From positions 1 through 5,634 of the forward strand of contig JADYZI010000117.1 in the NCBI GenBank assembly GCA_020853255.1: a stretch of DNA of 5,634 nucleotides, written 5' to 3'. The position numbers and the translations under genes were made by a program. This document shows, in pieces, positions 1,773 through 4,687 of this stretch (within the stretch, counting starts at the first letter, position 1; every line of letters starts with the position of its first letter). The notes below the pieces were generated by a model. The model was not told the DNA's origin. It saw only the letters and a list, made by a program, of their open reading frames with translations, and did not search any database. This DNA is from Acidobacteriota bacterium. GTDB taxonomy: Bacteria > Acidobacteriota > Blastocatellia > Pyrinomonadales > Pyrinomonadaceae.

Positions 1773-1903
1773 GGCGGAAACACGACCGGCAGGGAGTGTG
1801 CATTTTGAAGAACCGGACGCTTAAAGACGTGCCGGTTCTTTTTGTTTCTGGTAACGTTTGAGACGGACGATGCGGCACACTCCCTGCCGGTCGTGTTTCT
1901 GCC
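1773..1903. repeat. REPIN-like inverted-repeat element, copy 1 (ftsH-folP gap)
   Basis: Left arm 1773-1801 and right arm 1875-1903 are reverse complements at 28 of 29 positions; the single difference (G for A at the fourth base) would still pair as G-U in RNA. The arms flank a 73-bp centre that contains a terminator-like hairpin. The same arm sequence recurs at 3312-3419, so this is a dispersed family and not a unique stem-loop. Each arm can also fold alone: ACAC-GA-CC-loop-GG-GA-GTGT, at 1780-1799 and 1877-1896. The element starts on the base after the ftsH stop codon and ends five bases before the folP start. I see no clear target-site duplication. A REP/REPIN or MITE relationship is inferred from architecture only, since no mobilising transposase is present in the window. 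Confidence 0.85.
1808..1847 (+). terminator. Rho-independent terminator downstream of ftsH
   Basis: A nine-pair stem (AAGAACCGG at 1808-1816 with CCGGTTCTT at 1832-1840) can extend by three pairs past one bulged G (1831), closing on an eight-base loop (1820-1827). The 3' side runs into five T residues (1839-1843), then GTTT. This is the classic intrinsic terminator shape on the plus strand; the other strand has no T tract after the stem. It sits in the centre of repeat copy 1, and copy 2 has nothing equivalent. It should end or reduce ftsH transcription before folP, which would then need its own promoter or read-through. Confidence 0.7.
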
Positions 1904-1908
1904 CCGGT

Positions 1909-2751
1909 ATGCACTGGAAAACTTCCAAACGCGAAATAGATCTGACCTATCCGCGGGTGATGGCGATCCTTAACGTCACACCGGACAGCTTTTCTGACGG
2001 CGGGCGATATTCGGACGTTGGATCAGCTCTGAAACACGCCGAGCAAATGATCTTTGATGGCGCCGACATCATCGATATCGGTGGCGAATCGACGCGCCCT
2101 GGCAGCAGCCGCGTTTCGGCCGGTGAAGAGATATCCCGCATCGTTCCGGTCATCGAGGCCCTAGCGGAGCAATTTGATATTCCGATCTCTGTCGATACCT
2201 CCAAATCGCAGGTAGCCAGAGCGGCTTTGGACGCCGGGGCCGAAATTATCAATGACATTTCAGGTTTAAGATTCGATCCGCTTTTAGCCCAGGCTGCGGC
2301 CGGATCAAATGCCGGACTTGTCCTTATGCACTCGCGCGGCGAGTTTGAATCGATGCATTCACAACCGCCGGTTGACGATATTCTTGCTGATGCAGCCGCC
2401 GACTTTCGCCGCGCGATCCAGCAGGCTAAGGCTGCAGGCGTAGGCCGCGAGCAGATTGTTCTCGACGTCGGCATCGGCTTTGGCAAAACAGTTGATCAAA
2501 ATTTAGAACTGATCGCGAAACTTGATAAACTCATCGCTGACTTTCCCCAATTTCCAATGCTCGTCGGCACGTCGCGAAAATCGTTCATCGGCAAGCTGTT
2601 GAACGATGTGCCGCCGAATAAGCGATCAGCCGGTTCCCTGGCCAGTGCCGCGATCGCGGTCTGGAACGGCGCCAGGATCGTTCGTGTACACGATGTGAAG
2701 GATACGGTTGAAGATCTTAAAGTGGTCCACGCTATGATAGTCGTAAGATGA
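1909..2751 (+). CDS. folP: Dihydropteroate synthase
   Basis: FolP condenses 6-hydroxymethyl-7,8-dihydropterin pyrophosphate with p-aminobenzoate to form dihydropteroate in cytosolic folate synthesis; it is the sulfonamide target. From the ATG at 1909 the protein is 280 aa, normal for the family, and the TIM-barrel motifs appear in order: ILNVTPDSFSDGG (res. 20-32), DIGGESTRPG (56-65), ISVDTSK (93-99), NDISG (115-119), LMHSRG (139-144), DVGIGFGKT (186-194), GTSRKSFIG (220-228) and RVHDV (259-263). Residues N22, D56, D96, N115, D186, K224, R259 and H261 correspond to the substrate-binding set known from E. coli DHPS. An in-frame ATG at 1858 would add 17 residues (with His-Thr-Pro-Cys-Arg-Ser-Cys) that are merely translated repeat arm, so I prefer 1909, where the normal family N-terminus MHWK begins. 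No good Shine-Dalgarno is seen before it. The stop overlaps the next gene's start (ATGA), implying translational coupling. Confidence 0.96.
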   Translation: MHWKTSKREIDLTYPRVMAILNVTPDSFSDGGRYSDVGSALKHAEQMIFDGADIIDIGGESTRPGSSRVSAGEEISRIVPVIEALAEQFDIPISVDTSKSQVARAALDAGAEIINDISGLRFDPLLAQAAAGSNAGLVLMHSRGEFESMHSQPPVDDILADAAADFRRAIQQAKAAGVGREQIVLDVGIGFGKTVDQNLELIAKLDKLIADFPQFPMLVGTSRKSFIGKLLNDVPPNKRSAGSLASAAIAVWNGARIVRVHDVKDTVEDLKVVHAMIVVR

Positions 2752-3311
2752 GTCAGTCAAAGAACTACATCAGAACCGTTTTTGCCCTCTTTGCCTTTCT
2801 TTTGGTCTCGGGCTTTACCGAATGCTATAAGCCCGTGACGAATACCGGTTTGCCAAAGCATATAAAGACGATCGCGGTCCCTGCCTTTCAGTTTGATGCC
2901 CAGGCTCTGCGTTATCGTGTTTCGTCACGATTTACCGATGCGGTCACGAAGGAGATAATTCGCCGCGGCGGCGGATTGAAAGTGCAGGGAACCACCGAAG
3001 GGGCGGATGCGGTCGTCGAAGGCACAGTTCGCGATTTTAGCTTTACCGGCGTTCTTCTTGACCGCGAGGGCCGCGCCCGTGTCTATGAAGTGACGATCGT
3101 GACCGCCGTGACCATCCGCGATCTCAAAGAGAACAAGATCTTGTACGACAACCAGAATCTTGTCTTCCGCGATTCGTTCGAGTTCTCATCCGATCCACGC
3201 TCGTTCTTTAACGAAGAAGACCCGGCCGTCGACCGCATCGCCCGGGCATTCTCAGAATCGGTGGTCTCAACGATCGTAAACGGAATGGGCGTGAAGGAAG
3301 AGAAGGAGTAA
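2748..3311 (+). CDS. lptE: LptE-like LPS-assembly lipoprotein
   Basis: LptE is the outer-membrane lipoprotein that plugs and helps assemble the LptD translocon, delivering lipopolysaccharide to the cell surface. The 187-aa product has a basic start (K5, R9), a hydrophobic segment (about res. 10-23) and a cysteine at 26, fitting a lipoprotein signal. The mature part begins YKPVTNTGLPKHIKTIAVP, followed by an RYRVSSRFTDAVTKEIIRR helix, a pattern typical of the RlpB/LptE family: a conserved core strand (IAVPAF), then a helix ending in a run of basic residues. The oddity is the lipobox: the residues before Cys26 are F-T-E, where Gly, Ala or Ser is usual at -1. Start ATG overlaps the folP stop by four bases. 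holA follows, as lptE-holA do in E. coli, which supports the call. The family is divergent and sequence identity is usually low, so a generic envelope lipoprotein remains possible. Confidence 0.78.
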   Translation: MSQSKNYIRTVFALFAFLLVSGFTECYKPVTNTGLPKHIKTIAVPAFQFDAQALRYRVSSRFTDAVTKEIIRRGGGLKVQGTTEGADAVVEGTVRDFSFTGVLLDREGRARVYEVTIVTAVTIRDLKENKILYDNQNLVFRDSFEFSSDPRSFFNEEDPAVDRIARAFSESVVSTIVNGMGVKEEKE

Positions 3312-3419
3312 GGCAGAAACACGACCGGTAGGGAGTGTGCCTCGTGGCGTGTGCGTTGTAGGCGGTAGTTTGATCCGTTTCATCGATGCGGCACACTCGC
3401 TACGGCTCGTGTTTCTGCC
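3312..3419. repeat. REPIN-like inverted-repeat element, copy 2 (lptE-holA gap)
   Basis: Left arm 3312-3341 and right arm 3390-3419 are reverse complements at 27 of 30 positions. Pairing continues two more bases outward (3310-3311 with 3420-3421), so the palindrome overlaps the lptE TAA stop. The left arm differs from the copy 1 arms at only one or two interior positions. The right arm differs at three central positions yet keeps its own hairpin (3393-3412). Homology with copy 1 also runs inward on the right side (CGATGCGGCACACTC at 3384-3398 and 1868-1882). The left part of the centre (3342-3367) is unrelated to copy 1 and has no terminator. The element ends six bases before the holA ATG. Confidence 0.85.
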
Positions 3420-3425
3420 TTGGTT

Positions 3426-4460
3426 ATGCCTTTGTCTCGCGAACAACTTAGAACCCAGCTTCGCCAGCGGAAGATCGCGCCGGTCTATGTGCTGTTTGGC
3501 GCGGAGACCTATCTGCGTGACGCAGCGGCGCGGTATATTGCGGATCTTTGCTTCAGCGAAGGCGATCTGCGGGAGTTCAACGAGGACGAGTACAGCCTTA
3601 ACACACCTGAGAATCTGCGGTCGGCCCTTGCGGCGGCAGAGCAGCTTCCAATGATGGCGGCAAAACGCGTAATTCGGGTTACCGATGTTTGCGTTGCGTC
3701 AGCCGCGAACCGTGACACGCTGAAAGAGGAATTTGAAGAAGCTCTTGCGGCCTATCTCGGCAACCCGTGTCAAAGCACGGTGCTTATTTTTCTCGCCGAT
3801 AATCTGGTGGCGAGCCGAAAACTTGGAAAGCTGCTCATCAATAAAGCCCTCGCCGTCGATTTCTCGCCGCTTGACGACAACGGCCTGCGAAAGTGGGCGA
3901 CGGACCGCTTTCGTGAGCTTGGGGCTGAGGCAGACGCGGCAACCGTCAGGCATCTTGTCGATGCGGTTGGGAACGACGTTCGGCGGCTTAATAACGAGGT
4001 CGCAAAATTATCGGCCGCCGCCTTGCCGGACGGGCGGGTAACACCGGGCCTGGTAGATGTGCTCGTGCCAAATTCGCGTGAGCTGTCGAATTTGGTCCTG
4101 ACGAATAATCTGCTCGCCGGCCGAAAGGACAAGGCCTTGCGTGATCTCAAAAAGATCCTCGATGACGGAATGGACCCGCTCGGCCTTCTAGGCCTTATCG
4201 GGGCAACCTATCGGCGACTACTGATGGCGAATGAAATGTTCAGGCGAGGCGACCCTAGGGGAGCCGAAAGAGTAGCCTATGGTGACGGCAAGGACGCATT
4301 CCTTGCCTCCGCCCGCCGCATTGAGCAAAAAAAATTGGTACAAGCAATACGCCGCATCTCGGAAACGGACCTTGCAATAAAAACCTCGGTCGGCGGCAGC
4401 GGCACCGCAGGTGGACGAATGCAGATCGAAATGCTGGTCTGTGAACTTGCCTTGCTGTAG
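3426..4460 (+). CDS. holA: DNA polymerase III subunit delta
   Basis: The delta subunit is the wrench of the clamp loader: it opens the beta sliding clamp and loads it on primed DNA together with gamma/tau and delta'. From the ATG at 3426 the protein is 344 aa, the normal length. Its N-terminus carries the family signature APVYVLFGAETYLRDAA (res. 18-34), the opening strand of the AAA-like fold, which in delta lacks a working Walker A, as expected here. A middle region PLDDNGLRKWATDRFRELG (148-166), VGNDVRRLNNEVAKL (181-195) and a helical C-terminal collar domain ending GGRMQIEMLVCELALL (329-344) also match the family. A TTG at 3420 would add two residues but lies on the end of repeat copy 2; the ATG is preferred. 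No strong Shine-Dalgarno precedes either. The gene follows the LptE-like gene, matching the lptE-holA order of other Gram-negative bacteria. Confidence 0.92.
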   Translation: MPLSREQLRTQLRQRKIAPVYVLFGAETYLRDAAARYIADLCFSEGDLREFNEDEYSLNTPENLRSALAAAEQLPMMAAKRVIRVTDVCVASAANRDTLKEEFEEALAAYLGNPCQSTVLIFLADNLVASRKLGKLLINKALAVDFSPLDDNGLRKWATDRFRELGAEADAATVRHLVDAVGNDVRRLNNEVAKLSAAALPDGRVTPGLVDVLVPNSRELSNLVLTNNLLAGRKDKALRDLKKILDDGMDPLGLLGLIGATYRRLLMANEMFRRGDPRGAERVAYGDGKDAFLASARRIEQKKLVQAIRRISETDLAIKTSVGGSGTAGGRMQIEMLVCELALL

Positions 4461-4491
4461 CCGTTTCCCGCCAAAGCCAGAATAGCGACTG

Positions 4492-4530
4492 AAAGAATGA
4501 AAAGGCCGTATGGTAGATGTCCATACGGCT
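4492..4530 (-). terminator. Hairpin with T-rich tail, possible terminator for the minus-strand genes
   Basis: A perfect nine-pair stem (GCCGTATGG at 4505-4513, CCATACGGC at 4521-4529) closes on a seven-base loop and gains one G-T pair at the base. Read on the minus strand the stem runs into TTTTCATTCTTT (4503-4492), which fits an intrinsic terminator for the convergent zinc-ribbon gene, although it lies about 160 bases past that stop and beyond the MITE-like repeat. On the plus strand, 44 bases after holA, no T tract follows, so it may act there only as an mRNA 3'-end stabilising hairpin. Confidence 0.45.
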
Positions 4531-4540
4531 CTCAGGTATA

Positions 4541-4628
4541 GGATTGTAGGGGCAGCAAAGCGGCTGCCCGCTCGACGCCCGCCTGGGAAAGGAAGAACGG
4601 CGGGGGACAAGCCCTGCCCCTACAATTT
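4541..4628. repeat. MITE-like palindromic repeat with 13-bp perfect terminal inverted repeats
   Basis: ATTGTAGGGGCAG (4543-4555) and CTGCCCCTACAAT (4614-4626) are exact reverse complements, 58 bases apart. Internal hairpins also exist: GGGCAGC (4550-4556) with GCTGCCC (4563-4569), and CCCGCC (4578-4583) with GGCGGG (4599-4604). From general knowledge, GTAGGGGC-type palindromes recur between genes in many bacterial genomes and yield spurious peptides of the VGAGLVP type; the minus-strand translation here does include IVGAGLVP. It is unrelated to the two elements flanking folP-lptE. The convergent intergenic region 4461-4687 otherwise holds only the hairpin at 4505-4529 and no credible gene. 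Confidence 0.7.
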
Positions 4629-4687
4629 TGGATAATGCGGCTCGTTTTCCCGCAAGAAGTGATTGCAAACGGCCCGTCTTTACGATC

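Follow-up and report, generated by a model that had tools for sequence, protein, structure and literature searches.

The window, by which we mean the whole 5,634-nucleotide stretch of Acidobacteriota DNA analyzed here, carries, one after the other, ftsH, folP, an lptE-like gene, and holA, and two of the gaps between these genes are filled by repeats. The gap before folP (1773–1908) is made up of a 131-bp inverted repeat and five further bases, that before holA (3312–3425) of a 108-bp inverted repeat and six further bases, and both repeats (1773–1903 and 3312–3419) are inverted pairs of a common 30-bp arm, GGCAGAAACACGACCGGTAGGGAGTGTGCC. The folP-side doublet has its first base, 1773, directly after the ftsH stop codon and its last, 1903, 5 bases from the ATG at 1909, and the holA-side doublet extends from 3312, directly after the stop codon of the lptE-like gene, to 3419, 6 bases from the ATG at 3426, in agreement with the initial annotation, which had described the two gaps as one repeat family fitted from stop codon to start codon. 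The features are as follows, the hairpin at 1808–1843 being assigned from sequence and fold.

3–1772, + strand: ftsH, with its 5′ end beyond the window; stop codon TAG at 1770–1772
1773–1802, + strand: REP arm of type A, left half of the folP-side doublet
1803–1873, no strand: private center of the folP-side doublet; among 317 loci, only L001 has a match, in its orthologous gap
1808–1843, + strand: terminator-like hairpin AAGAACCGG..CCGGTTCTT followed by a T stretch, between the folP-side arms
1874–1903, − strand: REP arm of type A, right half of the folP-side doublet, ending 5 bases before the folP ATG
1909–2751, + strand: folP, dihydropteroate synthase (DHPS); start codon ATG at 1909
2748–3311, + strand: lptE-like gene (LptE domain PF04390, 44.1 bits); stop codon TAA at 3309–3311
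3312–3341, + strand: REP arm of type A (family consensus), left half of the holA-side doublet
3342–3389, no strand: private center of the holA-side doublet, resembling the centers in the orthologous gap of L001 (by alignment) and of L005 (by eye)
3390–3419, − strand: REP arm of type B (GAGCCGTAGCGA), right half of the holA-side doublet, with a compensatory change at an inner pair
3426–4460, + strand: holA, DNA polymerase III delta; start codon ATG at 3426

The inverted repeat of the folP gap (30 nt, 97% complementary) tops the list of inverted repeats in the window, and that of the holA gap (32 nt, 91% complementary) heads the list with it. They score 53 and 45, whereas none of 30 mononucleotide shuffles per gap exceeded 21 (z = 14.8 and 12.0), and RNA folding of the + strand gave z values of −11.3 and −7.0, respectively, with none of 200 dinucleotide shuffles being equally stable. 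An Rfam scan found no family above threshold. Aligned in register, the two gaps are 85% alike in the left arm region and likewise 85% alike in the right. The arms are not all of one type, the right arm on the holA side being the type B variant. The centers differ, as had been noted, with 73 and 48 nt between the arms, and each is private to its locus: in a comparison with 317 loci (2.2 Mb), they matched only the orthologous gaps of L001, the best of the loci found through FolP (FolP 82% identical), and, for the holA-side center, one further 18-nt stretch.

The hairpin at 1808–1843 can be read as a putative terminator of ftsH, and the ftsH–folP gaps of relatives contain, as judged by eye, hairpins followed by T runs. 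Because the folP-side center contains this terminator-like hairpin, the initial proposal that the doublets form the 5′ leaders of the two genes stands unproven. The gap after holA (4461–4687 in the window) contains, also by eye, a hairpin GCCGTATGG..CCATACGGC near 4506 and an inverted repeat TGTAGGGGCAG..CTGCCCCTACA at about 4545–4626; an Rfam match to ar7 in this gap, which lies outside the doublets, scored 19.1 bits, far below the cut-off of 60.

Dispersal of the arm in related genomes

Relatives were found through FolP, by taking the best 80 loci, and the genomes from 25 of these loci were searched. The core of the arm (at most 3 mismatches) was present in 20 of the 25 genomes, G001 and G005 having 88 sites apiece and a third close relative, G002, having 10, and had 0 sites in the other five; the reversed pattern used as a control was found in none of the 25. 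The arm is, accordingly, not a sequence conserved at the two loci with no copies elsewhere, the case in which locus-specific structures would have been favored over a dispersed family. An even draw of Acidobacteriota genomes contained the core in 11 of 247, compared with 1 site of the control, and the arm family is restricted to some lineages, with a patchy presence among the genomes. A literature search, with most subscription papers outside its reach, found no paper on the family. REPs have been counted in some Acidobacteriota with a new tool, according to the accessible part of that report (PMC12306157), and these counts could include the arm family.

The arrangement of the arms was surveyed in 40 contigs of G001 (431 kb), from which the arm-bearing contigs C5 and C125 were left out. 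The 49 arm loci comprised 23 single arms, 15 inverted pairs, and 11 other arrangements, and direct arrays had steps of about 52, 84, and 105 bp. Neighboring arms at most 200 bp apart were oriented +− in 23 cases, ++ in 14, −− in 8, and −+ in 3. The ratio of singlets to doublets, 23 to 17 two-arm loci (15 of them inverted), is below the REPIN limit of 2. Of 27 doublets, 7 have one center in common and 3 another, and most centers are not shared, which suggests that some doublets may have moved together with their center.

The arm as a covarying hairpin

The arm can be modeled as GGCA GAAA CAC GA CC GGTA GG GA GTG TGCC, that is, as a REP fold composed of a CnGA foot, a short stem, a tandem G.A internal loop, 2 bp, and a four-base loop. 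Covariation was assessed with 112 distinct arms, 36 of the 148 collected having been dropped because of more than 9 mismatches to the consensus. Against shuffles that ignore the kinship of the arms, pair 10–25 was standard in 103 of the 112 arms versus 67.7 ± 3.6 (A-T 69, C-G 19, G-C 10, and G-T 5; across all 148 arms, A-T 69, C-G 36, G-C 17, and G-T 7), and pair 14–21 in 100 versus 61.5 ± 4.5 (C-G 70 and G-C 28), while pair 15–20 was slightly above the shuffles (110 versus 103.5). Because the outer pairs, 1–30 to 4–27, showed no excess over the shuffles in the 112 arms, and pairs 9–26 and 11–24 are nearly invariant, the covariation support comes from 10–25, 14–21, and, weakly, 15–20. In slid controls, the count for pair 10 was reduced to 24 and 21 of 112 and that for pair 14 to 75 and 65. 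The tandem mismatch is kept, with G.A at 12–23 in 100 and A.G at 13–22 in 94 of the 112 arms, and in the collection that yielded the 148-arm set the reversed pattern gave 10 matches versus 398 for the true pattern. The type B arm of the window is the G-C form of pair 14–21 (GAGC..GCGA versus GACC..GGGA in type A). Of 97 arms from G001, most have CAGA or CGGA as their foot, and an unpaired GT[AG]G tag is absent from the foot of these arms.

The REP of Escherichia coli also folds into a hairpin whose stem is interrupted midway by a two-base mismatch loop, which, in the part of PMC8266576 available to us, is described as important for cleavage by TnpA-REP. The loop is AA/GC and the foot GTAG in that system, in contrast with GA/GA and CnGA here, and the enzyme belongs to another class. 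Since the E. coli REP needs its mismatch loop, the conserved G.A loop of the present arm is likely a recognition feature.

Placement of the arms relative to genes

With G001 genes taken from simple codon-usage calls, which are not curated, 30 of the 49 arm loci are intergenic, though 87% of the surveyed DNA is coding, and 19 overlap genes. An A precedes the arm in 76% of the 86 distinct flanks, and a quarter of them are without this favored base. Among gene 3′ ends facing an intergenic element, 8 of 19 lie within one base of the element, versus 2.9 expected from random placement within the gap (both neighbors called; the orthologous contig of the window left out), and at 7 of these 8 ends a TAG stop is completed by the G with which the arm opens. 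The abutment to stop codons described in the initial annotation thus recurs, with a moderate excess. At the 23 intergenic loci for which both neighbors were called, the neighbors are co-directional at 21, convergent at 1, and divergent at 1, compared with 287 : 44 : 40 for all adjacent gene pairs.

In 12 of the 13 genes with arms that lack an inverted partner, the arm reads, in sense and in a single frame, as AETRPVGSVP or a near variant; examples on G001 contigs are L171 (3709), L175 (3889–5325), and L207 (1702). In L171, an aldehyde dehydrogenase by our reading, the arm sits in a loop, and the matching loop is shorter and without the arm in G012, G015, and G004, has its own arm in G003 and another insert in G002, and falls at the contig end in G005.

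The orthologous gap before holA

In a set composed of the window and L001–L039, the gap before holA was readable in 36 loci and was measured to the first aligned HolA residue. Short gaps free of the element do occur at the orthologous place, the gap being 5–36 bp in 25 of the 36 loci. It exceeds 60 bp in 11, and 10 of these (not L013) beat 30 shuffles for an inverted repeat. The arm of the window type is present only in the window, which has one doublet, in L005, with two doublets in tandem, and in L001, with three left arms; both of the gaps are occupied in L001 too and, in changed form, in L005. Other inverted repeats, typed by eye, fill 7 of the 8 long gaps without the window arm (L002, L003, L006, L009, L014, L016, and L017) and are of several unrelated types. 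The gap between the lptE-like gene and holA thus appears to be a recurrent docking site of unrelated inverted repeats.

A probable class 3 transposase and its association with the arm

At one locus of G012 (L271), a 172-aa gene at 985–1503 lies between arms at 939 and 1583. Its protein has the motifs NHVH and YTFNGQ (Y----Q), and N99, H100, H102, W139, and Y160 are invariant, and Q165 is conserved in at least 90%, in 50 aligned sequences. The protein scores 20 bits with Pfam Y1_Tnp (cut-off 23), 18.5 with NF047646 (80), and 22.5 with NF033573 (55), a weak match to Y1_Tnp and RAYT profiles below the curated cut-offs; some homologs among the 120 listed of 1582 matches are named "REP element-mobilizing transposase RayT" in the public source. 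A PDB sequence search with the transposase gave nothing under E 0.4. Its AlphaFold model (mean pLDDT 81, pTM 0.75) matched ISDra2, TnpA-REP, and IS608 in Foldseek (2xma, 4er8, and 2vih; E about 5e-5, TM about 0.5), and the predicted fold is of the HuH/Y1 type.

These properties agree with class 3 TnpA-Y1, which the accessible part of Quentin 2018 (PMC6006769) describes from 24 analyzed proteins as about 178 aa long with NHVH and Y----Q motifs, with Acidobacteria among the hosts, with genes flanked by atypical, weaker hairpins having a CnGA foot, and with about 600 hairpin copies in Solibacter usitatus. The likeness extends over protein size, NH-x-H, Y----Q, CnGA-foot flanks, and many dispersed copies, the class assignment being made from this published description. 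Doublets, tandem arrays, in-frame genic sites, a covarying stem, and the tandem G.A loop set the present family apart from the class 3 REPtrons as far as that part of the paper describes them.

Transposase homologs, other class 3 subfamilies included, were found in 20 of the 25 relatives' genomes, and among the 24 genomes tested for both, a homolog was present in 19 of 20 arm-bearing and 0 of 4 arm-free genomes. G006 has the arm and no homolog and G004 only a 34-residue piece, for which draft assemblies may be the explanation. Inverted flanks (score of at least 30) surround all 25 class 3 loci tested (30 fetched), versus 3 of 60 random G001 genes, and also 17 of 28 ordinary RAYT, 26 of 29 IS200-like, and 25 of 30 GxxExxY loci; because these other genes are often flanked too, inverted flanks by themselves do not single out class 3. 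Arms with CAGA or CGGA lie beside the transposase genes of L281, L282, L283, L284, and L285, while the foot is CAGT or CCGT in other class 3 subfamilies. Over 26 loci, two of whose arms (L282 and L284) were entered as a consensus, arm similarity tracks transposase identity (Mantel r 0.61, reached in 0 of 5000 permutations), and the arm of the window pairs with one transposase clade, L281–L285. An architecture of stem, 1–2 mismatches, two pairs, and four-base loop is shared by 19 of 24 class 3 arms, versus 14.5% of mononucleotide shuffles.

Other candidates for the partner of the arm were rejected. The IS200-like genes (PF01797, in 16 of 16 genomes) had no arm close by in 30 fetched loci as judged by a motif scan. 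Ordinary RAYTs are common, with NF047646 matches in 18 of 18 genomes searched and above the cut-off in 14 of 18, and had the arm close only at L218 among 30 fetched loci (more matched). In the two sets of loci together, the arms at L216 and L232 are more than 1 kb from the gene, and L138 has a related G.A hairpin with a different stem. L218 (G008:C20) itself has two arms with variant loops no more than about 200 bp from one end of its RAYT gene, and a further arm more than 1 kb beyond the other end. L272, where arms are about 0.8 kb apart, encloses a Fer4_13 protein and was rejected as a transposase locus, and GxxExxY genes were rejected as the mobilizer, since their inverted flanks are, by eye, other repeats.

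Discussion

Both gaps are very probably occupied by REPIN-type doublets of a REP family that belongs with a class 3 TnpA-Y1 transposase (RAYT-like, of the single-strand HuH kind) of Blastocatellia-type Acidobacteriota. This reading draws on the dispersal of the arm in relatives, the covariation of its hairpin, the arms around the transposase, the co-variation of arm and enzyme, and the element-free gaps. The mobilization of the doublets, and any effect that they might have on the expression of folP or holA, are inferred. The REPIN/MITE-type dispersed family initially proposed is retained in its REPIN-like aspect, being dispersed in relatives and having a cognate transposase, and abandoned in that of a MITE with a common body, as only the arm is shared. 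The RAYT REPINs, in the portion of Bertels and Rainey 2011 that could be accessed (PMC3116915), are likewise inverted REP doublets with variable spacers, a HuH transposase, and a ratio below 2; the present elements differ in having no GTAG tag, in the low NF047646 score of the enzyme, and in centers that are mostly unshared. Short palindromes mostly downstream of genes, with some within them, are also found among the GTAG/CGTC REPs, and Acidobacteria tyrosine transposases bordered by terminal inverted repeats among the TIRYT elements, both as presented in the accessible text of Di Nocera 2013 (PMC3733652), though neither tag occurs at the arm ends here.

The alternative that survives best, yet with a rather small probability, is that the doublets are host-useful structures of whatever origin, such as a protein-binding site, an RNase III site, or a terminator, kept by selection as has been proposed for enterobacterial REP/BIME. 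The excess of co-directional neighbors (21 of 23 loci versus 287 : 44 : 40 overall) and the compensatory changes in the arms would fit such a role, but promoter avoidance could explain the scarcity between divergent genes, recognition by the transposase predicts covariation equally well, and the distribution is patchy (11 of 247 Acidobacteriota genomes). Less probable is a MITE, in which the arms would be the terminal inverted repeats of a 108–131-bp non-autonomous unit moved by a double-strand (DDE) transposase. The arms are indeed inverted and sharply bounded, and the groups of 7 and 3 among 27 doublets with shared centers may include some that moved with their center. Against this, 23 of the 49 G001 loci have a lone arm and others consist of arms repeated in direct tandem, and the covariation and conserved internal loop of the arm hairpin are features that a double-strand terminal repeat can do without. 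The gene enclosed by arms encodes an enzyme of predicted HuH/Y1 type, and the window centers have no copies elsewhere in the 317 loci beyond the one 18-nt match. Least probable of all, by a little, are locus-specific regulatory hairpins of folP and holA acting in attenuation or mRNA stability, which would suit the very stable folds, the exact fit from stop to start codon, and the recurrence of the elements in both gaps in L001 and, altered, in L005, but are at odds with an arm that is dispersed and lies inside genes too, with orthologous holA gaps of only 5–36 bp in 25 of 36 loci, with the other inverted repeats in 7 of 8 long gaps without the arm, and with the lack of any Rfam family above threshold.

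If the doublets are indeed of the REPIN type, the class 3 transposase would recognize the arm hairpin on single-stranded DNA and cut near its foot, and REPs or doublets would be pasted into sites whose last base is A, in many cases at a stop codon or within it (TA^GG). An element inserted at the stop would add DNA between genes and break none, and local duplication might then produce arrays such as those in the holA gap, where the window has one doublet, L005 two, and L001 three left arms. Insertion at stops and local duplication would make the doublets genomic hitch-hikers turned spacers, not dedicated regulators. When transcribed, a doublet would form a long hairpin, and on the folP side the terminator-like hairpin would be made before the second arm. 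A bolder and doubtful extension is that the class 3 enzymes represent a third independent lineage of REP transposases with a code of their own (a stem, a mismatch loop, two pairs, and a GNNA-like tetraloop). In this subfamily the code would be the tandem sheared G.A loop, and insertion would favor stops (TA^GG), the element being able to contribute the final base of the codon. The gap before holA would then be a docking site used repeatedly by several unrelated hairpin elements.

The finding is ordinary in kind, and a new REP family is behind it. In the papers compared here, the pairs of REP and transposase tested at the bench carry GTAG feet, and the present elements supply class 3, about which little is known, with a family of many members, whose hairpin code can be tested and whose enzymes and arms are matched in related Acidobacteriota. 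They also show a route by which compact operons gain spacers. The corresponding gap measures a few bases in most relatives and holds unrelated inverted repeats in others, so that even a conspicuous hairpin in front of an essential gene may have no regulatory role.

The GxxExxY genes (PD-(D/E)XK, PF13366; L241–L270) have degenerate inverted arms of their own (CCACAGAG.., CGCAAAG.., and CACGGAT..) at 25 of 30 loci, the score of 30 being reached in 4 of 40 cases of a cross-locus null, and our literature search found no report of GxxExxY/PDDEXK_3 genes with inverted arms. The 589-bp holA gap of L014 lies between arms of the GxxExxY type, and its contig number fits a PF13366 match, G026:C482:1721-2056.
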